A model generated the notes under the pieces. The model saw only the letters and a program-made list of their open reading frames with translations, had not been told where the DNA came from and did not search any database. DNA of 64,000 nt from Mucilaginibacter jinjuensis (lineage in GTDB: Bacteria; Bacteroidota; Bacteroidia; Sphingobacteriales; Sphingobacteriaceae), in assembly GCF_028596025.1 (NCBI RefSeq), contig NZ_CP117167.1, positions 4,278,001 through 4,342,000 of the forward strand, given 5' to 3'. Shown here piece by piece: positions 2,918 to 13,823 of the stretch (positions are counted from its first letter, which is position 1; the number at the start of each line of letters is the position of its first letter). Position numbers and translations under genes: made by a program.

Positions 2918-3829
2918 TTATAACAGGTTAATATCTTCCAGGTGCTGACCGAAGCGGTAGGTTAATGTGATCTCATTGGTTGAGTTATTGAACCCGCCAA
3001 TGTTGTTTGATGCTGTACCGAACTGATAGCTGTATCCCAGGCGGAAATTAGCAAACATGAAGCTTACAATACCCGCCATTTCATTATTAGTACGATAATC
3101 GGCTCCTATGCCAAATACATTTTTAAGGTACATAGTGGTCGAAAAGTTAGCCACAAAAGGAATACCCTTGGTATAAGTGGCCAGGAAAGCCGGCTTTACT
3201 TTGAGATCTTTCCCGCCATCAATCAGGTAAGCGCCCGAGAAGTTATAGTGGTTACGGAAATAAGTATTATCCTGGATAGATGCCGTGCCTAATGAAGTAA
3301 AAGTTAGTTCAGGAACTGCCACACCTAAAAAGTACTCATCAGAATAAAGCATCACACCAAAACCAAAGTTGGGCTTGTTCTGGCGAACATCGTCACGGAA
3401 TAGCGGGTCGTTAGCATCTAATGACGAATAGTTGGCCACATAGTTACGGATACCTGCATTAAGCGATACACCTAAATGCGTCTTCTCACTCAGGTTAATA
3501 CTCTTGGCAAAAAAGGCATTGATCTCGGTTAAGTGTTCCACGGCAAACTGGTCGTTCATCACAACAACACCTGCCGAACCATTAATAGCTTCGAGCGGCA
3601 TACTACCGTTAAAAATAAACGTAGTGGGCGAGCCTGGTATACCTGTCCACTGTTTACGCAGCAGGGCGTTTAATGACCCGTTTTGATCCAATAATGAATA
3701 TGCCGGATTAAGCGGCGTTTGGTTATTCATATACTGGCTATAGGTAAATTGCTGCTGGGCCCGGGCCACAGTACCAACACCTACACTTAGCAGGCAAATT
3801 AATATAGCTTTGGTAATATTTTTCATCAT
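2918..3829 (-). CDS. PorP/SprF-family type IX secretion-associated outer membrane protein
   Basis: A predicted outer-membrane beta-barrel of 303 residues. It has a Sec signal peptide (cleavage near VARAQ, about residue 25) and the family's N-terminal signature QFTYSQYMNNQTPLNPAYS, then the TGIPGSPTT loop. PorP/SprF proteins help export or anchor large CHU_C (type B) cargo proteins of the type IX system. It lies 15 bases downstream of the 2516-residue CHU_C protein on the same strand, the standard SprB/SprF-like pairing, so it is probably the dedicated partner of that cargo. MM at the start leaves the initiation codon uncertain by one residue. Confidence 0.92.
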   Translation of the reverse strand: MMKNITKAILICLLSVGVGTVARAQQQFTYSQYMNNQTPLNPAYSLLDQNGSLNALLRKQWTGIPGSPTTFIFNGSMPLEAINGSAGVVVMNDQFAVEHLTEINAFFAKSINLSEKTHLGVSLNAGIRNYVANYSSLDANDPLFRDDVRQNKPNFGFGVMLYSDEYFLGVAVPELTFTSLGTASIQDNTYFRNHYNFSGAYLIDGGKDLKVKPAFLATYTKGIPFVANFSTTMYLKNVFGIGADYRTNNEMAGIVSFMFANFRLGYSYQFGTASNNIGGFNNSTNEITLTYRFGQHLEDINLL

Positions 3830-3844
3830 GCCTCACTCTTAATA

Positions 3845-6800
3845 CTAATCATACTTCAATACAAAATATCCTGTTAAGTGCCTTCCAACACCATTTACTA
3901 CGTATTCAACCAGGTAGAAATAAGTACCTGCCTGTTGTTTAGCACCGGTAAAGTTAGATCGTCCGTCAAAAAACTTATTAGTATTGTCATAACCATTAAT
4001 TTCATACACCCTTACGCCGTTTCTGTTAATAATAGTAACACGGTTATCAGGATGCTCATTAATACCTTCAATGTATAACACATCATTTATCCCGTCGCCG
4101 TTAGGTGATACCGCAGGATGTACAATTACCTCTCGGTTAAGATCTTTCACCTCAAGGTTTCGCACTACAGTATTAGCCGCATAATAATTAGCGTCTCCAG
4201 CCTGGTTGGCAACAATACCAGTAATACCTACCCGAAGCGAGCTAACTGTTAATCCATTTATCGATGCAATCACTGGATCGTTGGTGGTAAAGGTTACCGG
4301 CAGGCCCGAGCTCGATTTAATATTGCTCAGATCATAAGTAGTGCCGCGAAGCTGTACAGGGATATTGGCAAAATCAATAGTTTGCGCAGCCTTGTTTACA
4401 ACCATAAACTGACTGATGGATGGTGTAGTATTATAATCAGGGTTTACAGGCAGCGATGCTGTAATAGTTACATAACCGGCACCCACAATGTGTATCTGGC
4501 CATTCACTATAGTTGCCACGGCAGTATTGCTGCTGGTATATATAATAGGCTCACCGCTGGTGGCTGTTGCACCGGCATCAAAATCAGGGTCGCCATACGT
4601 TTTAACCGGTAATTGGTTAAACGTAAGGTTACGGCCAATAGTAGTAACAGTAAGCGTTGCATTTACATACCTGAAGGTATAATCGTTAGATACGGCCCCG
4701 TTAACCGTAATTGGATAAATACCAACTAACGACGCAGTAGTGGCCGTTGTAGTTGCAGTAGCTTGCGTTGTAAGATTAGCCTGCGTATCGCCATTTACAA
4801 AGCCCGAATAGTTGATTGTAAAATCAGGATTAGGCTGATTATAAGGGCGAGATACATCGTTAGTAGAAACATTCAATGCTGCCTTACTAACGGTAATAGC
4901 TACATTTTTAGTTACTGTTATATAATTTACAGCATCAGTTGGGGTAAATGTTACCGCCAGGGTTTGGTTGGATCCTGCATGCAATACAGTACCCGCAGCA
5001 GGCGAATAGGTAAACGTACCTGGCACGGTGGTAGAAGCATACAATTGCTGATCGCCCAATGCTGTACCATAAGTAATAGCTGTAGGGTTAGTCCAGGTAA
5101 GTACCGGTGTAAGTTTGCCCACGCCTATCTGTACAGTTTTGGTAACTGAATTGTAATTGCTGGCATCTGTAGGTGTAAATGTTACCGACAAGGTTTGATT
5201 TGCACCTGCATTAAGCACATCTCCAATTGCCGGGGTATAAACAAATGTACCCGGTACATTGGCCGTTGCATTAAGTTGTGTTGCGCTTAACGCCACACCC
5301 TGAGCAATATTTGATGGGGTTGCCCAGGCTATTACAGGGTTAGCCTTGTTAACAGTTATGCTAACTGTTTTACCTGCAACCTGATAATTATTACTACCCG
5401 GAGTAAAAGTGGCTAATAACGTTTGCGTACCCACATTTAACACTTCGCCAAAATTAGGTGAGTAAACAAATGTACCATCAACATTGGCTGTAGCATTAAG
5501 TTGGTTAGCGCTTAATGCCGTGCCATAAGTAATAGGCCCCGGGGCTGTCCAGCTAATTACAGGCTGTGCAGGTTTTACATTAATAGTTACTGATTGATTA
5601 GCCGGATTATAATGCGCCCCATCAGTTGGTGTAAATGTTACAGATAAGGTACGGCTTCCTACTGCTAAAGGAATAACGGTTCCGTCTGTCGAATAAGTAA
5701 ATGTACCATGGATACTGGCATCAGCCGTGGTAGCATTCTGTTGTACCGAATTTATTAATGTACCATAGGTAATATCAGCAGGTCTATTCCAGTTAATTAC
5801 CGGGGTTATCTTAGTTATGTCAACAGCGTATACGTCAATAGTTGTATTAGCCGTAATATTATCGGTATAATTACGGGTATCTGTTGGATGAAACACAACC
5901 GATAATGGCTGGCCGGTCCCAACTGTATTCATCACACTACCTATTGCAGGTGTGTAAACAAACGTACCATCTATAGAGTTAGTGATTTGTGCATTCAACT
6001 GTGCGTTACTTAATACTGTACCTACAGATATAGCTACAGGTTTAGTCCAAATAATTACGGGTGTTACCGGAGTTACTGTAATAGAAACTGTTTTACTGAC
6101 CTGATTGTAAAGGGCAGTATTTGTTGGAGTAAAGTAAGCTGTGATTGTATGAGTGCCCACTGGTAATACACTACTTGTAGCATCAGGCGTGTAGCTAAAT
6201 ACGCCTATTACTGGTGTTGTAGTGTTTGGCACCGTAGCAGTTGCGTTAAGTTGAGTCCTGCCAAGTACTGTACCATAACTAATAGGCGCAGGATCAGCCC
6301 AGTTAATTTGTGGATTAATTGCTGATATATTTACAGGGTTAACAGTTACTGTTGCTAATACATTTACAGTTTTATAATTAACTGCATCTGTTGGCGTAAA
6401 CTTAGCTGCTAGTGTTTGATTCCCCTGTGTATTCATAATTGTACCCAAGGGCGGATTGAAGGTAAAAGTTCCTGTTGTCGTAACAGTACTGGCATTTAAT
6501 TGATCCATTGTTAATGCAGTACCTACCGTCATAGGCAGTGGGTTCCATGTAATAGCAGGGGTAACTTGGCCCACGGTAATATGTGAGGTGAACACAACAG
6601 GTGTTGGGTCATAGTTCGGGTCACTGGCCGTAAATGTCGCCGTGATCACCTCGCCGCTCCCTACAGGTAATACCGTGCCCAGCAGCTGGCTGTAGCTCAT
6701 GTTGCCACTCACATTACCAACTGTCGTTGCATTCAACTGGACATTGCTTAACGCCGTGCCATAAGTGATCGGGGCCAGCGGGTCTGTCCATACGATCTGA

Positions 6801-9800
6801 GGGATAGCCGCATCTACCGTGATCTGGGTCGTTATGTCTTTTGGCGCATAGTCTGTATCATCAGGTACAAAGTGTGCGTGTAACGTATGCACACCTTTGC
6901 TTAATACGGTACCGGCACTTTCTGTATAAGTGAAATGCCCGGTTAAACCTGCTGTTAATACCGATGCATCGAATATCCCTGCCGGTAATCCAGTACCGTA
7001 CGCAATATGACCCTGGTCTGCCCAGTTCAGCGACGGGTCAAGTTGTGTTACCGTAACCGATATCGTTTTACTACCCCCGGTATAACTCACGTCATCCGGT
7101 GAAGATGGCGTATAAGTTACTGTCAGGTCCTGAGCAGATCCCGTATAATGTAACTGCCCGCCTGATGGACTGTAGACCTTGTTTCCATTTAGCGTTACAC
7201 CACCTATACCCGTAACCGTCGCCGTTTCCAGCGTACTGATAGCTGTCTTGGCAGGATATGTGCCTGATAAAGCCCAGTTGATCAATGGTGAAGCCTGGCC
7301 CACATGCACTGTTACCGTTTTGCCCGTGCCGCTATAGTTCGCATCATCTGGTGAGGACGGTACATACGTCGCGATCAGGTCATCGTTTCCAACGGGTAAA
7401 ATCGTATGCTCGTCTATCGGAGAATTATTATAGCTATATGTTATTGTGCCTTGCAGGGCAGGTGTTACCCTACCTGCTTTCGTAGCCGTTGCATTAAAGT
7501 ATGCCAACCCCAACTCTACCCCATAAGTCAGTGTCGTCGATGGGGTCCAGTTGATCTGTGGCGTTGCCCGGTTTACATCAATATGTGAGGTGAACACAAC
7601 AGGTGTTGGGTCATAGTTCGGGTCACTGGCCGTAAACGTCGCCGTGATCACCTCGCCGCTCCCTACAGGTAATACCGTGCCCAGCGGCTGGCTGTAGCTC
7701 ATGTTGCCACTCACATTACCAACTGTCGTTGCATTTAGCTGGACATTGCTTAACGCCGTACCATAAGTGATCGGGGCCAGCGGGTCTGTCCATACGATCT
7801 GAGGGATAGCCGCATCTACCGTAATCTGGGTCGTTATGTCTTTTGGCGCATAGTCCGTATCGTCAGGTACAAAATGTGCGTGTAACGTATGCACACCTTT
7901 GCTTAATACGGTACCGGCACTTTCTGTATAAGTGAAATGCCCGGTTAAACCTGCTGTTAATACCGATGCATCGAATATCCCTGCCGGTAATCCAGTACCG
8001 TACGCAATATGACCCTGGTCTGCCCAGTTCAGCGACGGGTCAAGTTGTGTTACCGTAACCGATATCGTTTTACTACCCCCGGTATAACTCACGTCATCCG
8101 GTGAAGATGGCGTATAAGTTACTGTCAGGTCCTGAGCAGATCCCGTATAATGTAACTGCCCGCCTGATGGACTGTAGACCTTGTTTCCATTTAGCGTTAC
8201 ACCACCTATACCCGTAACCGTCGCCGTTTCCAGCGTACTGATAGCTGTCTTGGCAGGATATGTGCCTGATAAAGCCCAGTTGATCAATGGTGAAGCCTGG
8301 CCCACATGCACTGTTACCGTTTTGCCCGTGCCGCTATAGTTCGCATCATCTGGTGAGGACGGTACATACGTCGCGATCAGGTCATCGTTTCCAACGGGTA
8401 AAATCGTATGCTCGTCTATCGGAGAATTATTATAGCTATATGTTATTGTGCCTTGCAGGGCAGGTGTTACCGTACCTGCTTTCGTAGCCGTTGCATTAAA
8501 GTATGCCAACCCCAACTCTACCCCATAAGTCAGTGTCGTCGATGGGGTCCAGTTGATCTGTGGCGTTGCCCGGTTTACATCAATATGTGAGGTGAACACA
8601 ACAGGTGTTGGGTCATAGTTCGGGTCACTGGCCGTAAATGTCGCCGTGATCACCTCGCCGCTCCCTACAGGTAATACCGTGCCCAGCAGCTGGCTGTAGC
8701 TCATGTTGCCACTCACATTACCAACTGTCGTTGCATTCAACTGGACATTGCTTAACGCCGTGCCATAAGTGATCGGGGCCAGCGGGTCTGTCCATACGAT
8801 CTGAGGGATAGCCGCATCTACCGTGATCTGGGTCGTTATGTCTTTTGGCGCATAGTCTGTATCATCAGGTACAAAGTGTGCGTGTAACGTATGCACACCT
8901 TTGCTTAATACGGTACCGGCACTTTCTGTATAAGTGAAATGCCCGGTTAAACCTGCTGTTAATACCGATGCATCGAATATCCCTGCCGGTAATCCAGTAC
9001 CGTACGCAATATGACCCTGGTCTGCCCAGTTCAGCGACGGGTCAAGTTGTGTTACCGTAACCGATATCGTTTTACTACCCCCGGTATAACTCACGTCATC
9101 CGGTGAAGATGGCGTATAAGTTACTGTCAGGTCCTGAGCAGATCCCGTATAATGTAACTGCCCGCCTGATGGACTGTAGACCTTGTTTCCATTTAGCGTT
9201 ACACCACCTATACCCGTAACCGTCGCCGTTTCCAGCGTACTGATAGCTGTCTTGGCAGGATATGTGCCTGATAAAGCCCAGTTGATCAATGGTGAAGCCT
9301 GGCCCACATGCACTGTTACCGTTTTGCCCGTGCCGCTATAGTTCGCATCATCTGGTGAGGACGGTACATACGTCGCGATCAGGTCATCGTTTCCAACGGG
9401 TAAAATCGTATGCTCGTCTATCGGAGAATTATTATAGCTATATGTTATTGCTGTACTACCCGCAAGAGCCGGCGTAGTCGTGCCCGCTTTCGTCGCAGTT
9501 GCACTAAAATATCCAGCTCCTAATTCAGTTCCATAAGTCAGTGTTGTTGCTGGTGACCAGTTGATCTGTGGCGTATCTTTGTCTATATCAAAACCAACAT
9601 GAAGTGTAGCGGCGTTATATGTGGTAGTTGCAGCTTGTGAAATAATAATATCTACATGCCCCACTCCTACTATGTTTATAGTACTTGGAGCAGTAAGTGT
9701 AGCACCAACGCTCGATGGATCTAATGAATAGGTAAATGCTCCGGCAGATGCTGATGACGGATGTAAAAGTGGTTGGATGTCAAACGAAGCATCATTATAT

Positions 9801-11395
9801 TTTTTATTAGGTATAGTACCTGCTGTTATAGTTGGGTTACCTTTCGGTATTACCATCACAACATTAGAAGGGCTGCTTTCTTTATTTGTTGTAGCTGCTT
9901 TTATATAAAAATACAAGGGAGTACCGTTGGTCACTGATATTTCAGACTGATATGTTGTGGTATTTGCGTCAACACTTGTAAGAATGGTTAAATTAGTGCT
10001 TGATGAGCCTTCATATATATTGTAACCGTTTATATTATCGCTAATGCTGTTGGCATCCTCCCAATCTAATCGATAACTACCATCGAGCGAAGTTGCAACC
10101 AAATTAGTTGGGCTTGCTGGTGTGGCAGTATAATTTACACTATAGGTAGCTAGTGCATTAAATTCTCCGCTAATATCCTTTACTACTGAAGCTAAATTTA
10201 TAGTTATCAACTCAGGCCCATTACCTGTAGGTACCAAGTTTACAGTATATTGTTCTTTAGCTGTAAATGTTTCTACCCTATTATTATTCCGGTCTGCTAC
10301 ATAAATATTCCCATTTTTATCGGCTGTAATTCCAGACGGAAATCTAAGGTTCCCATCACCTACACCTGTCGATCCTCCTATTCCTAAAAATCCATCAGTA
10401 GCGATATCAAATATCTCCACCCGCGATGTGGTACTTTTGTCAACAACATAAATTTTTCCTATTCCATCTGTTGTTATACCCGCCGGTGATAAAAACTCTC
10501 CGTTGCCAGTACCAGGCACACCTATTGTGCCAAGAGGATTACCGGCCATATCAAATTTTACAATTCTTCTATTACCAGAATCTGTTACATAAATAACCCC
10601 ACCTGTAACTACTACACCCGAAGGACCAGCAAATTGCCCCGATGCACTACCACTACTACCATATTGTCTTGAAAGTGTGCCCAAATTAGTATCAAATACA
10701 GCGACCCTGTTATTTCCGGCATCGGCAACATATAGCTCATGATGCCCCTCGTCTAAATAAATACCCTGTGGTTTGTTTAACTGACCCGTAGCAATTGTAC
10801 CACTAGTGCCAATAGAGGTTAAATAAATACCCGGACTGCTAAATACCTGTACACGATTATTACCTGCGTCCGCCACATAAATAACTCCACTCGTACTAAC
10901 TGCAATACCATAAGGTTGATTAAACTGCTCATTACTAACACCAAAAGATCCAAACTGCCCCACATAAGCACCATTTTTATCAAAAATTTCAACACGGTTA
11001 TTGCCACTATTAGCGGTAAGGTTATTACCATCGGTAACATAAGTATTGCCGGCGGCATCTACTGCAAGATCATTGGGCTGGTTTAAATTGCCATTACCTG
11101 ACCCTATCGTTCCAAATTGATTTAAATAAGTTAGCGTGACTTTTTCCGTTAATCCTGATAAAGTTCCATTTGCTGTAGGTATTGCAAAGTCTGAGAGTTT
11201 AAGTGCTGGTGATGCAGTTTTGTCTAATGCTATTGTAATTGCAATTGGCGAAGAAGTAACATTACCCCCATCTGCCACCGGCCCAGTTATTGTTGTGGGA
11301 AATGTAGCAGGCGGCGGATTATATCTACCTGCAATTGCCGCCGTATAACTGGCGTACCCTAAAGTGATAAGAATTAGAAGTAAAAGTTTTTTCAT
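3845..11395 (-). CDS. Giant secreted NHL/MBG repeat protein with CHU_C type IX sorting domain
   Basis: A 2516-residue surface or secreted protein. In order: signal peptide (about 1-20); six or so NHL repeats (about 88-378; NRVEIF and YVADAGNNRVQVF motifs) forming a propeller; a fibronectin III-like segment (about 415-515); then many Ig-like repeats of about 80 residues with the pattern I-W-x-x-P-I-x-YGT-x-L-x-x-x-QLNAT and FTPTD-x-NY. Residues about 603-1605 come from three near-identical 334-residue units encoded by 1002-bp DNA repeats. An MBG domain (about 2170-2245) and a gliding-motility-associated C-terminal domain (about 2430-2516; SPNGDGINDVLYI, AGTYFYLVEY) follow, marking type IX export. 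Function is unknown; adhesin or matrix protein is inferred. It heads an operon with the PorP/SprF gene. Confidence 0.92.
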   Translation of the reverse strand: MKKLLLLILITLGYASYTAAIAGRYNPPPATFPTTITGPVADGGNVTSSPIAITIALDKTASPALKLSDFAIPTANGTLSGLTEKVTLTYLNQFGTIGSGNGNLNQPNDLAVDAAGNTYVTDGNNLTANSGNNRVEIFDKNGAYVGQFGSFGVSNEQFNQPYGIAVSTSGVIYVADAGNNRVQVFSSPGIYLTSIGTSGTIATGQLNKPQGIYLDEGHHELYVADAGNNRVAVFDTNLGTLSRQYGSSGSASGQFAGPSGVVVTGGVIYVTDSGNRRIVKFDMAGNPLGTIGVPGTGNGEFLSPAGITTDGIGKIYVVDKSTTSRVEIFDIATDGFLGIGGSTGVGDGNLRFPSGITADKNGNIYVADRNNNRVETFTAKEQYTVNLVPTGNGPELITINLASVVKDISGEFNALATYSVNYTATPASPTNLVATSLDGSYRLDWEDANSISDNINGYNIYEGSSSTNLTILTSVDANTTTYQSEISVTNGTPLYFYIKAATTNKESSPSNVVMVIPKGNPTITAGTIPNKKYNDASFDIQPLLHPSSASAGAFTYSLDPSSVGATLTAPSTINIVGVGHVDIIISQAATTTYNAATLHVGFDIDKDTPQINWSPATTLTYGTELGAGYFSATATKAGTTTPALAGSTAITYSYNNSPIDEHTILPVGNDDLIATYVPSSPDDANYSGTGKTVTVHVGQASPLINWALSGTYPAKTAISTLETATVTGIGGVTLNGNKVYSPSGGQLHYTGSAQDLTVTYTPSSPDDVSYTGGSKTISVTVTQLDPSLNWADQGHIAYGTGLPAGIFDASVLTAGLTGHFTYTESAGTVLSKGVHTLHAHFVPDDTDYAPKDITTQITVDAAIPQIVWTDPLAPITYGTALSNVQLNATTVGNVSGNMSYSQLLGTVLPVGSGEVITATFTASDPNYDPTPVVFTSHIDVNRATPQINWTPSTTLTYGVELGLAYFNATATKAGTVTPALQGTITYSYNNSPIDEHTILPVGNDDLIATYVPSSPDDANYSGTGKTVTVHVGQASPLINWALSGTYPAKTAISTLETATVTGIGGVTLNGNKVYSPSGGQLHYTGSAQDLTVTYTPSSPDDVSYTGGSKTISVTVTQLDPSLNWADQGHIAYGTGLPAGIFDASVLTAGLTGHFTYTESAGTVLSKGVHTLHAHFVPDDTDYAPKDITTQITVDAAIPQIVWTDPLAPITYGTALSNVQLNATTVGNVSGNMSYSQPLGTVLPVGSGEVITATFTASDPNYDPTPVVFTSHIDVNRATPQINWTPSTTLTYGVELGLAYFNATATKAGRVTPALQGTITYSYNNSPIDEHTILPVGNDDLIATYVPSSPDDANYSGTGKTVTVHVGQASPLINWALSGTYPAKTAISTLETATVTGIGGVTLNGNKVYSPSGGQLHYTGSAQDLTVTYTPSSPDDVSYTGGSKTISVTVTQLDPSLNWADQGHIAYGTGLPAGIFDASVLTAGLTGHFTYTESAGTVLSKGVHTLHAHFVPDDTDYAPKDITTQITVDAAIPQIVWTDPLAPITYGTALSNVQLNATTVGNVSGNMSYSQLLGTVLPVGSGEVITATFTASDPNYDPTPVVFTSHITVGQVTPAITWNPLPMTVGTALTMDQLNASTVTTTGTFTFNPPLGTIMNTQGNQTLAAKFTPTDAVNYKTVNVLATVTVNPVNISAINPQINWADPAPISYGTVLGRTQLNATATVPNTTTPVIGVFSYTPDATSSVLPVGTHTITAYFTPTNTALYNQVSKTVSITVTPVTPVIIWTKPVAISVGTVLSNAQLNAQITNSIDGTFVYTPAIGSVMNTVGTGQPLSVVFHPTDTRNYTDNITANTTIDVYAVDITKITPVINWNRPADITYGTLINSVQQNATTADASIHGTFTYSTDGTVIPLAVGSRTLSVTFTPTDGAHYNPANQSVTINVKPAQPVISWTAPGPITYGTALSANQLNATANVDGTFVYSPNFGEVLNVGTQTLLATFTPGSNNYQVAGKTVSITVNKANPVIAWATPSNIAQGVALSATQLNATANVPGTFVYTPAIGDVLNAGANQTLSVTFTPTDASNYNSVTKTVQIGVGKLTPVLTWTNPTAITYGTALGDQQLYASTTVPGTFTYSPAAGTVLHAGSNQTLAVTFTPTDAVNYITVTKNVAITVSKAALNVSTNDVSRPYNQPNPDFTINYSGFVNGDTQANLTTQATATTTATTASLVGIYPITVNGAVSNDYTFRYVNATLTVTTIGRNLTFNQLPVKTYGDPDFDAGATATSGEPIIYTSSNTAVATIVNGQIHIVGAGYVTITASLPVNPDYNTTPSISQFMVVNKAAQTIDFANIPVQLRGTTYDLSNIKSSSGLPVTFTTNDPVIASINGLTVSSLRVGITGIVANQAGDANYYAANTVVRNLEVKDLNREVIVHPAVSPNGDGINDVLYIEGINEHPDNRVTIINRNGVRVYEINGYDNTNKFFDGRSNFTGAKQQAGTYFYLVEYVVNGVGRHLTGYFVLKYD
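6581..9586 (-). repeat. Three tandem 1002-bp coding repeats
   Basis: The same sequence recurs with an exact start-to-start offset of 1002 bp: copies begin at 6581, 7583 and 8585. The third is near-identical to about 9450 and then diverges while still coding for a similar segment. A few substitutions separate them. Copies 1 and 3 share CAGCAGCTGG where copy 2 has CAGCGGCTGG (Leu versus Pro), and they also share synonymous changes near 6823-6870/8825-8875. Reading frame is preserved (334 codons). Confidence 0.95.
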
Positions 11396-11900
11396 TTAGA
11401 AAGCTTTGCAATATGTTCAGGTAACGAATTGTTTATGTGCTTACTCATCTTTATTTGATGACATGGAAATATACCACAATAAACATATTATAACAAGCAA
11501 AACCAGAGCGTTGTGCCATACCCCAAATATAATCACATTAGTTAAAATCTACTGAGCAGCAAGATATTACATTTGTAACAATATTGATACAATGAAACTT
11601 TTTCAAAATGGGTCTTTTAACGGTAAAATGGGGTCATTTAACGGCGAATATTACTGAAAAAATTACTTATATCAATTTCTTCTTACTTAAATAAGTAAGC
11701 TTATTATGTAAGATTTTAGCGAAAAACCTAGGGTAAATATCCAATCAATTGATAAAAAAGTATTATTTATATTTCTTCATTGTTAATACTTTTAACATAG
11801 TATAAATTACTATATTATTTTTTAGCCCTTGCTATATCTATAGCAGGTTGAAAAAGTAACCAATTATGAACTTAAACACCTACTTAAACAATCTATTTCG
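11396..11900. other. Divergent control region between the giant surface-protein operon and the glycosidase gene
   Basis: A 505-base AT-rich spacer with no gene. For the minus-strand operon it holds a TATATTTG box (11531 down to 11524, matching TAnnTTTG), which would leave a 5' leader of about 120 nt. A pair of direct repeats lies about 75-115 bases upstream of that box. I see no clear TAnnTTTG box for the glycosidase gene starting at 11901. Confidence 0.5.
11605..11645 (-). promoter_or_regulatory. Direct repeat pair, possible LytTR-type operator
   Basis: Two 20-21-base units follow each other: AAAATGGGTCTTTTAACGGT and AAAATGGGGTCATTTAACGG. On the minus strand the cores read ACCGTTAAA and GCCGTTAAA, about 20 bp apart. 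LytTR regulators typically recognise two direct half-sites with a GTT core about 21-22 bp apart. A LytTR gene lies next to the downstream end of the same operon. The match to the published half-site is partial. Confidence 0.35.
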
Positions 11901-13823
11901 ATGAAACACTGCATCACATTTGTATTTTTTTTGCTCATATTTTCGGATATCGCCTGTGCACAAACAGAATTACAGCCTTGGGGAAACCTCGATGGTATTC
12001 GCAAAGGTGGCCAGCTATTCAGTTTTGAATCGTCGTTAACGATAATTGATAAGGGATGGACCAGGAACTCAAGCACCCGCAAAGAAGCGCAACAACCCAA
12101 ATACACCAGGGATGGGAACAAACAAATTGTAAATACAGCAATTGATAGTTTATTACTGGTTGAAACTGTAAAAGATGCAGGCAACGGGAAGGCAAAAATC
12201 AAAATTGAAGCTACTGCAAAAAGTGATATGACCATCGAAGGTGTGTTTTTTAAGTTAAACCTTCCTACTACCTACAATAATGGTTCTATAACTGCAAAGG
12301 GTAGCTCTATTTCATATAATATTGCTCAGCTAAGACCAGAGAATCTTAAGATTATCTCCAAAGAAATTACTGTTATAAATGCCAGACAGCAACTAAAGTT
12401 TAGCTTTAAAGATGCAGCATCATTTATTATAAAAAAGAACAGCAACGGTACTGAACTTTATGTACCTGTACAAACCGGCAATATTGCAAAAGGCCAGAAT
12501 ACTACACAGGAATTTACCATAAGCGTTTCGGGTGAAACAAATAAAAAACCAGTGCAGGTTAGATTAGATGCAGGTAACCAGGGCCGGGTGTTTGTAGGCT
12601 TCGGTGGCAATTTCCGCCTGCAAAAGCCAGATACAGACCCTGAGGTTATTGATTATTGCCTAAACAATATGCGAGTTGCTTGGGGACGGGTGGAAATGCC
12701 TTTCGCTCAATGGCAACCTGAGAAAGACATTGATCCACTATTGCAAGACCCAAACGGTAATCTTAATGCCCATGTACGCGAATCGATGGAAATGGCGCAA
12801 CGCCTGCAACGCATCGGCATGCCCATTATACTAACATCATGGAATGCACCAAAATGGGCTATCATTGGCGAGCCGCATTATCGCCAACCTAAACCGGGCG
12901 AACAATGGGGGAATTCACTTAACCCGGAGAATATGCAGGCTACCTATAAATCAATAACCGATTACATTGTTTATTTGAAAGATAAGTTCGGTGTTGACGT
13001 TAGCTTATTTTCATTTAACGAATCGGATTTAGGTATTAACGTACGTGTAACCGCCCAGGAGCACAATACTTTAATCAAGGGACTCGGTGCTTATTTTGTA
13101 TCAAGAGGTTTAAAAACTAAAATGCTACTGGGTGATAACTCTGATGCCACTACTTACGAGTTTATTTATCCCGCTTTGAATGACCCAGATGCGAGGCCAT
13201 ATATTGGTGCTATTTCATTCCACTCTTGGCGTGGTTGGAAAACCGAAACCCTACAAAAATGGGCCGATGCTGCTAAAAAGATCAATGCACCGCTTATTGT
13301 TGGCGAAGGTAGTATTGATGCTGCTGCCTGGAACTACCCTGACATATTTCAGGAGCAAACGTATGCTATTGAGGAAATTAACCTTTACCTACGCTTATTA
13401 AAAATTTGTGAACCCATCACCATATTGCAATGGCAACTTACAGCCGATTATTCGCCCTTAATTGGTGGCGGTATTTTTGGCAATAATGAGCCCTTGCATC
13501 CTGGCCAACGTTTTTGGAATTTGAAACAACTGGCATCAACACCTAAAAACTCGATTTATATTGCTGCCCAAGCCGATCAGGAGGATGTGACCTGCGCAGC
13601 TTTAATCAATAGCCAAACAGATGATGCAACTGTACATCTGATAAACAATGGCGCTAAACGCGGTTTCATAATATCAGGCTTACCTAAAACCCACAAAAAG
13701 TTAGTGTTATACATTACATCAACCAAACTATCGATGAAAAAGAGATCGAAAATTGAGGTTGTAAATGGCGAAGCACACTTCACATTACCGGCCGTTTGCT
13801 TTGCAAGTTTGATGACTGAATAA
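11901..13823 (+). CDS. Secreted clan GH-A glycoside hydrolase, GH30-like
   Basis: A 640-residue exported glycosidase. Signal peptide about 1-20 (ending CAQT). An N-terminal beta-sandwich-like region runs to about 220. The catalytic barrel starts at VFVGFGGNFRLQ (about 230), followed by MPIILTSWNAPKWA. The probable acid/base is Glu374 in FSFNESDLG, preceded by Asn as in clan GH-A. The probable nucleophile is Glu469 in LIVGEGS. A C-terminal beta-sandwich follows LQWQL. The overall pattern fits GH30-type enzymes acting on beta-linked glycans, but the substrate is not readable. It stands alone, divergent from the giant surface-protein gene and about 5 kb from the SusC/D locus, which lacks an enzyme. 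Confidence 0.8.
   Translation: MKHCITFVFFLLIFSDIACAQTELQPWGNLDGIRKGGQLFSFESSLTIIDKGWTRNSSTRKEAQQPKYTRDGNKQIVNTAIDSLLLVETVKDAGNGKAKIKIEATAKSDMTIEGVFFKLNLPTTYNNGSITAKGSSISYNIAQLRPENLKIISKEITVINARQQLKFSFKDAASFIIKKNSNGTELYVPVQTGNIAKGQNTTQEFTISVSGETNKKPVQVRLDAGNQGRVFVGFGGNFRLQKPDTDPEVIDYCLNNMRVAWGRVEMPFAQWQPEKDIDPLLQDPNGNLNAHVRESMEMAQRLQRIGMPIILTSWNAPKWAIIGEPHYRQPKPGEQWGNSLNPENMQATYKSITDYIVYLKDKFGVDVSLFSFNESDLGINVRVTAQEHNTLIKGLGAYFVSRGLKTKMLLGDNSDATTYEFIYPALNDPDARPYIGAISFHSWRGWKTETLQKWADAAKKINAPLIVGEGSIDAAAWNYPDIFQEQTYAIEEINLYLRLLKICEPITILQWQLTADYSPLIGGGIFGNNEPLHPGQRFWNLKQLASTPKNSIYIAAQADQEDVTCAALINSQTDDATVHLINNGAKRGFIISGLPKTHKKLVLYITSTKLSMKKRSKIEVVNGEAHFTLPAVCFASLMTE

Follow-up and report, generated by a model that had tools for sequence, protein, structure and literature searches.

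The question raised by this locus is how three near-identical copies of a 1002-bp repeat came to lie in one giant gene with the first and the third agreeing where the second differs, an A-B-A pattern. The window, that is, the whole stretch of DNA analysed, comprises 64,000 nucleotides of Mucilaginibacter jinjuensis contig NZ_CP117167.1 (positions 4,278,001 to 4,342,000), and all coordinates given here are counted within it.

The gene and its partner

The repeats belong to a gene for a 2516-residue protein (Table 1) in which, going by the sequence, head and anchor are at opposite ends: an NHL propeller near the N-terminus, a CHU_C domain at the C-terminus and, between them, 19 or more Ig-like domains that make up the stalk. 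The C-terminal domain scored 68.7 bits with PF13585 (cut-off 27) and 37.2 bits with TIGR04131 (cut-off 35), and the PorP/SprF-family gene lying downstream scored 192.7 bits with TIGR03519. The limits of the NHL head were set by eye from the profile matches, and residues ~424-520 were likewise read by eye as fibronectin-like, where Pfam reports no such domain. According to passages in two papers, proteins with a type B C-terminal domain (CTD) bind or need PorP/SprF-like partners, which are often genetically linked to them (PMC9143113, PMC12618676). With such a CTD and such a linked partner, the product is a predicted T9SS type B substrate, and the earlier note's description of a surface-fibre gene is thereby backed. 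Elsewhere in the genome there is an SprA_N match of 541 bits, and by our count 9 of the 17 CHU_C places have a PorP/SprF place at most 200 bases away. A C-terminal alignment scan of genome contigs gave at least 342 confirmed matches, mainly from Bacteroidota among the matches listed; in the 80 of these that were retained, matches with Mucilaginibacter in the title were 31-59% identical and the best one came from a Sphingobacteriaceae bin.

Table 1. Positions in the window of the array gene, its parts and the adjoining partner gene
Feature	Position	Strand	Basis
Gene for giant predicted T9SS type B surface protein, 2516 aa	3845..11395	-	one open frame; NHL, MBG_2 and CHU_C matches; TIGR04131
NHL beta-propeller head, ~aa 100-370	10286..11098	-	PF01436 1.5e-36; SGL, DUF5128 and SBBP matches
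Array edge: the diverged 136 bp with which copy 1 begins (N-half of domain d1)	9451..9586	-	
Copy 1, near-identical portion	8585..9450	-	base-by-base comparison
Copy 2 of the four-domain 1002-bp unit	7583..8584	-	base-by-base comparison
Copy 2 variant tract, differing at nine sites from copies 1 and 3	7637..7874	-	base-by-base comparison
Copy 3, reaching the right array boundary at 6578	6578..7582	-	base-by-base comparison
Diverged Ig-like domains past the array, the final one MBG_2	4649..6577	-	
CHU_C / type B C-terminal sorting domain	3860..4123	-	PF13585 4.9e-19
PorP/SprF-family outer-membrane partner, 303 aa	2918..3829	-	PF11751 1e-52; TIGR03519 9.2e-57

Extent of the array

The three copies are real and were recovered mechanically at 1002-bp spacing. 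The earlier note had placed them at 6581-9586, but near-identity spans 6578-9450, or 2.87 units, and the remaining edge is only ~72% identical to copies 2 and 3, with a 6-bp indel in the alignment (register 1008). The change is abrupt, identity jumping from ~72% to 100% at 9450/9451. On the edge side, identity is 71.9% over 38 aligned codons, and 15 of the 31 codons for the same residue differ in sequence. Copies 1 and 3, by contrast, show zero differences over their 869 common bp, synonymous sites included, which supports the proposal that the copies were recently homogenised or expanded. The unit is 334 codons long and therefore in frame, and protein identity between copies is 96-99%. The edge is an older border of the array; it is 79.5% identical in amino acids to the G461 orthologue over 39 residues, as against 63.2% over 38 residues for the copy 2 version. 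Array DNA was found in one of the 399 genomes of the family, namely its own.

The variant tract of copy 2

The A-B-A pattern, described earlier as a Leu/Pro site with synonymous changes near it, was confirmed base by base at nine sites, running from 8876/7874/6872 to 8639/7637/6635 (copy 1/copy 2/copy 3). Eight of the nine differences are synonymous and the other is the Leu/Pro site (8688/7686/6684, codons CTG/CCG/CTG), and all fall inside 238 bp. One further difference separates copy 2 from copy 3 (8472 C, 7470 G; Thr/Arg), at a position where copy 1 is diverged. For nine random sites, the probability of lying inside a 238-bp stretch of the 869 bp is P = 2.6e-4, and that of all being confined to one copy is P = 1.5e-4; the differences of copy 2 are a mosaic tract, not scattered mutation. 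At least eight synonymous changes in nine has P = 1e-4 under unselected change (1.2e-3 when only transitions are counted), but this is unremarkable among repeat arrays, because 396 of the 602 differences between repeat copies in 13 other large ORFs are synonymous as well. All nine sites are transitions, against 362/602 in those ORFs (P ~0.01), to which we give no weight. No donor for the tract was found elsewhere in the genome, where the three matches all lie within the array, or by DNA among the 399 family genomes, which also provided no DNA-level outgroup to polarise the nine sites. The G016 orthologue did not polarise the Leu/Pro site either, having no distinct counterpart of domain 4.

Domain make-up of the unit

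The 334-residue unit consists of four dissimilar domains. Neighbouring domains in the array are 29-47% identical and have at most 11 exact bases in common, whereas domains four apart are 90-100% identical, so that changes in length are expected to come four domains at a time. Pfam gave a weak match on the unit, to Ig_CFAP65_4th (18 bits, below the cut-off of 27). The predicted structure (pLDDT 83.3, pTM 0.59) consists almost wholly of beta strands. Among the 50 rows listed by a Foldseek search with this model were rods of the cadherin/Ig type, a repeat from an Aeromonas RTX adhesin and fragments of Aureispira GhpA, and none of these rows had a TM-score above 0.35. Since the Pfam match is weak and the TM-scores are low, we call the array domains Ig-like on the strength of motif, model and likeness to the later stalk domains. 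No literature pairing T9SS with the Aureispira hook protein was found.

Orthologues and other repeat-bearing genes

The stalk differs between species at the syntenic locus. Another genome from the genus carries an orthologue of 3955 residues, as against 2516 here, with no near-identical repeats and a single counterpart of domains 2-3; the full-length G016 orthologue showed no repeats at 90% over 90 bp. The partner gene is 81% identical to the one at the orthologous locus. Near-identical internal repeats were present in 14 of 62 large type B-like ORFs, the present gene included, so the array is ordinary for giant surface proteins. That set was restricted to ORFs that are 900 aa or longer and carry a PNGDG-type C-terminal motif; duplicates (judged by the last 200 residues) and ORFs with long X runs were left out, and the G016 orthologue was included as a partial copy. 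At a 92% threshold, another ORF, L084, exceeds the array gene in repeated bases (3170 vs 2910).

Third-position GC (GC3) is 0.485 in the array compared with 0.281 in the rest of the gene (one unit vs the rest, P = 1.4e-12). GC-biased gene conversion was rejected as a general effect, with GC3 inside repeats up in 8 and down in 6 of the 14 repeat-bearing ORFs; apart from the array gene itself, the biggest rise among them was 0.09. A similar step is seen in the G461 orthologue, where GC3 is 0.28 before d1, 0.37 in d1 and 0.44 over the only 160 residues covered past it; repeats may lie further on in that frame.

Origin of the A-B-A pattern

We think it probable that the three copies form a higher-order tandem array within the stalk of a T9SS fibre, that recombination has homogenised it, and that one or more short-tract conversions left the A-B-A pattern behind. 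Homologous recombination between units, which lie 1 kb from each other and share runs of hundreds of identical bases, would keep the array uniform, and the same exchange could gain or lose whole units in frame. The edge would have retained its divergence by lying outside the homogenised part. A conversion of 238 bp or more inside the array could then have either homogenised copies 1 and 3 and spared part of copy 2, or given copy 2 a stretch from a diverged unit that has since been lost. The number of units would fix the distance of the NHL head from the cell, and the type B CTD together with its PorP/SprF partner would export and hold the protein. The recombination machinery, the conversion event, changes of unit number within the species and an adhesive role are all things that we infer.

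The earlier note had left the choice between duplication of a two-unit block and gene conversion. Conversion is mildly favoured, because getting from a two-unit a-b array to a-b-a takes three events by unequal crossover alone and two when conversion or tract import is allowed. A route by exchange alone does exist (ab, abb, ababb, aba), and higher-order repeats are also seen among relatives (G026, with 972 bp = 4 x 243) as well as in a second giant gene of the same genome (984 bp). Yet block duplication or a similar unequal exchange followed by unit loss would not by itself restrict the differences to 238 of the 869 common bases, and we regard this origin as unlikely. Somewhat better placed, though still not what we expect, is allelic recombination that brought the copy 2 tract from another strain into a single unit when the array was uniform; a single event would be enough starting from a-a-a (two from a-a), and the lack of a donor copy elsewhere in the genome fits. 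Against it, no donor was found, the array DNA matching none of the 399 family genomes but its own, and a diverged unit within the old array would be an equally good source. The three processes leave similar traces, and starting from two units conversion and import both need two events.

It could also be that the pattern was made by the assembler or polisher and that the true copy number or order is different, as three near-identical 1-kb copies are difficult for short reads. Collapse or misplacement, about which the earlier note had warned, is improbable given that the genome is a single 6.16-Mb contig in which three rRNA operons, with 4-6 kb in common at 97-99% identity, are also resolved, and base-calling errors in just one copy would be unexpected in identical contexts. 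Finally, constraint on the protein is possible in surface repeats generally, but there is next to no chance that it alone made the copies alike, an explanation ruled out by the synonymous sites, which are unchanged between copies 1 and 3 and diverged at the edge.

Relation to known surface proteins

The array belongs to a known kind of surface fibre, one that changes in length, and is a good instance of it rather than a novelty; from its sequence the protein is best placed among the candidate "Periscope Proteins". As described in passages of PMC8201768 and PMC9704523, this class includes SasG, Rib/alpha C, Sgo_0707 and CdrA, has long, highly identical tandem repeats as a stalk between head and anchor, and was searched for as tandem repeats of over 50 residues with at least 80% identity; here the 334-residue unit is present in 2.87 near-identical copies at 96-99% protein identity. 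The same passages give the CdrA repeats as MBG_2, the family of one late stalk domain here, and the SasG unit as likewise combining different types of domain (E and G5). The present protein differs in its anchor, a T9SS type B domain, and in its unit, whose four dissimilar domains keep adjacent domains below 50% identity. Neighbour identity below 50% is thought to avoid misfolding, and the Periscope work names alike neighbours as a difficulty.

With SprB/SprF of Flavobacterium johnsoniae and other type B substrates, as far as passages in PMC9143113 and PMC12618676 describe them, the locus has in common a giant protein, a type B CTD and an adjoining PorP/SprF-family gene. The SprA match in the genome is a further likeness; a difference is the head, which here is an NHL propeller.

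In LapA-type RTX adhesins, the head is held away from the cell by a string of near-identical Ig-like domains, and adhesins of the MpAFP/LapA type use type I secretion, unlike the predicted T9SS route here. Strings of near-identical Ig-like domains also extend the head of MpAFP-type RTX adhesins, and part of PMC4083281 describes the MpAFP repeats as single domains, in about 120 copies of 104 residues.

Meaning of the array

Searches of open-access papers for length-variable stalks in T9SS type B proteins gave no report of them and listed a single review, and the papers found about gene conversion among repeats of surface proteins mostly concern eukaryotes and parasites. With its diverged edge, homogenised interior and single variant tract, the locus is a clean example of apparent concerted evolution within one bacterial gene. 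The array also suggests a way for a length-variable stalk to avoid alike neighbours, the difficulty raised in the part of the Periscope work cited above. We tentatively propose, while thinking it rather less likely than the conversion itself, a 'four-step periscope', in which a block of four dissimilar domains would keep neighbours below 50% identity and yet supply identical DNA 1 kb apart, length would change solely by four domains, and short-tract conversion would even out blocks but not neighbours. Its generality is put in doubt by G026, in which the period is also four domains and neighbouring 243-bp repeats are ~84% alike over 1.8 kb. If the proposal is true, each step would be 334 aa, or about 19 nm if scaled as for CdrA.

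Giant gene and its genome

By Pfam and NCBIfam matches, the giant protein carries an NHL propeller near its N-terminus, an Ig-like MBG_2 domain towards the end of its stalk and a CHU_C/T9SS type B sorting domain at its C-terminus. A convergent LytTR response regulator gene (2169-2894) adjoins the PorP/SprF gene, and two imperfect 21-bp direct repeats (11605-11644), possibly regulatory, lie in AT-rich intergenic DNA on the giant gene's upstream side. The genome, a single contig of 6,157,393 bp, has an SprA_N match, 17 CHU_C places and 11 PorP/SprF places (one weak). It encodes a second giant CHU_C protein in a 3553-aa open frame (L025, G000:C1:974500-988500), next to which lies a further PorP/SprF gene; its higher-order repeat, with a period of 984 bp, is weaker. 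In that one contig the assembly resolved three SSU rRNA genes whose operons are 97-99% identical over 4-6 kb, and so it should probably have resolved the 2.9-kb array as well.

Features of the giant gene and its neighbours
Feature	Coordinates	Strand	Remarks
PorP/SprF-family gene	2918-3829		follows the giant gene; Pfam, NCBIfam
Giant surface-protein gene	3845-11395	-	2516 aa; one open frame
Copy 3	6578-7582
Copy 2	7583-8584
Copy 1, near-identical part	8585-9450
Divergent neighbour	11901-13823		640 aa; no Pfam match at E 0.01

Repeat copies and variant tract

The earlier note had placed three copies at 1002-bp spacing between 6581 and 9586. Copies and spacing were confirmed, the extent only in part: in gene orientation the near-identical run goes from 9450 to 6578 (2.87 units), and the first 136 bp of copy 1 (9451-9586, the N-terminal half of domain d1, here called the edge) are diverged, with ~72% identity to the equivalent part of copies 2 and 3 and a 6-bp indel. 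Variants common to copies 1 and 3 and absent from copy 2, also proposed in that note, are borne out at nine sites including the Leu/Pro site. These are private to copy 2, lie inside 7637-7874 and comprise eight synonymous changes and one Leu to Pro; a tenth difference (8472/7470) separates copy 2 from copy 3. That the nine sites arose by independent fresh mutation is rejected by their clustering (P = 2.6e-4) and by their being private to a single copy (P = 1.5e-4). The synonymous bias (P = 1e-4 against unselected change, 1.2e-3 for transitions) counts against fresh mutation only relative to unselected change, given that 396 of 602 between-copy differences are synonymous in 13 other repeat-bearing ORFs.

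A step in third-position GC coincides with the array: 0.485 over 6578-9450 versus 0.281 for the remainder of the gene, with a window ORF median of 0.43. It rises inconsistently inside repeats elsewhere (8 of 14 repeat-bearing ORFs, the giant gene counted), and a comparable step occurs in the orthologue of genome G461, in a short piece where no repeats are visible.

From the loci examined, 62 large ORFs whose C-terminus is type B-like were compared. In 14 of them, including the giant gene, internal repeats reach 95% identity or more over 150 bp. At this threshold the giant gene has the most repeated bases (2891), whereas at 92% ORF L084 exceeds it (3170 versus 2910); its 869-bp exact run is the longest among the 14, the next being 227 bp. 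A giant protein in another genome (L027, G026:C1:3404000-3416500) has 243-bp repeats with extra likeness at 972 bp, a four-repeat higher-order period.

Four-domain unit and its fold

The 334-aa unit consists of four domains (d1 to d4), each opening with a P-x-I/L-x-W-type motif. The part of the stalk at aa 608-2173 was divided into 19 such domains (one limit, aa 1945, was placed by eye), 12 of them in the array, and a few further Ig-like domains lie beyond aa 608-2173. Recombination would require about 20 or more exactly matching bases. Because neighbouring array domains are 29-47% identical, with at most 11 exact bases in common, and domains four apart are 90-100% identical, recombination in the array should proceed in four-domain steps. 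Pfam gave a weak match of the unit to PF24507 (18 bits, cut-off 27). A structure model of copy 2, built on a six-row alignment, is nearly all beta strands (mean pLDDT 83.3, pTM 0.59); the Foldseek matches listed for it include cadherin and Ig ectodomains, an Aeromonas RTX adhesin tandem repeat (6xi1) and Aureispira GhpA fragments, none of the best 50 having a TM-score above 0.35.

History of the array

The edge has 79.5% aa identity (39 residues) to the orthologous domain in G461, compared with 63.2% (38 residues) for the start of copy 2, and is 78.9% identical to the latter. The edge being nearer to G461, the duplication that parted the two versions looks old. Behind the edge the array would have been made uniform recently, in agreement with the recent origin or homogenisation put forward earlier, copies 1 and 3 showing no difference over the 869 bp they share.

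How copies 1 and 3 came to be alike around a variant copy 2 (a-b-a) was approached by a breadth-first count of events. Duplication of a two-unit block or gene conversion had been suggested. Block duplication, by unequal exchange only, takes three steps from a-b, against two with conversion, so that conversion within the array is mildly favoured and block duplication is a less likely possibility. Import of a tract into copy 2 is likewise a possibility: it takes one step from a-a-a or two from a-a, which does not separate it from conversion, but no donor for the tract was found in the genome or, by DNA, among 399 family genomes. Array DNA was detected in one of 399 family genomes, its own, and neither a second isolate of the species nor a usable DNA outgroup was found there.

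Relatives and known kinds

Of 149 genomes of the genus, 5 have a match to the unit protein, as have 4 of 395 genomes from the class; both counts include its own genome. The G016 locus is syntenic, with a 69% identical divergent upstream neighbour and an 81% identical PorP/SprF partner. Its giant protein (3955 aa) is 71% identical at the C-terminus versus 47% at the N-terminus, and no internal repeats were found in its gene at 90% over 90 bp. It has a single adjacent pair matching d2 and d3 (aa 670-822; top scores of 49 and 57 bits versus runners-up of 36 and 47), and no distinct counterparts of d1 and d4. With ~50 contigs, this assembly may have collapsed repeats. The G461 protein aligns at 65% over its first 776 residues, and its order is d1, a d2-like domain and a third domain that by eye does not resemble d3, the frame extending past the end of the piece compared. 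In these two genomes, the comparable parts of head, tail and partner are conserved while the stalk is rebuilt.

Periscope Proteins, as described in PMC8201768, have long, highly similar DNA repeats encoding stalks that vary in length, for which intragenic recombination is the proposed cause; the same source notes a folding problem where neighbouring domains are alike. Type B CTD proteins occur bound to PorP-like partners (PMC9143113), and for two of them dependence on cognate PorP/SprF shuttles has been demonstrated (PMC12618676). The giant gene unites a Periscope-like repeat stalk with a type B CTD and a PorP/SprF partner, and its product is a candidate Periscope Protein. On the scale of CdrA, in which 15 MBG_2 repeats measure 71 nm (PMC9704523), one four-domain unit would lengthen the stalk by an estimated ~19 nm.
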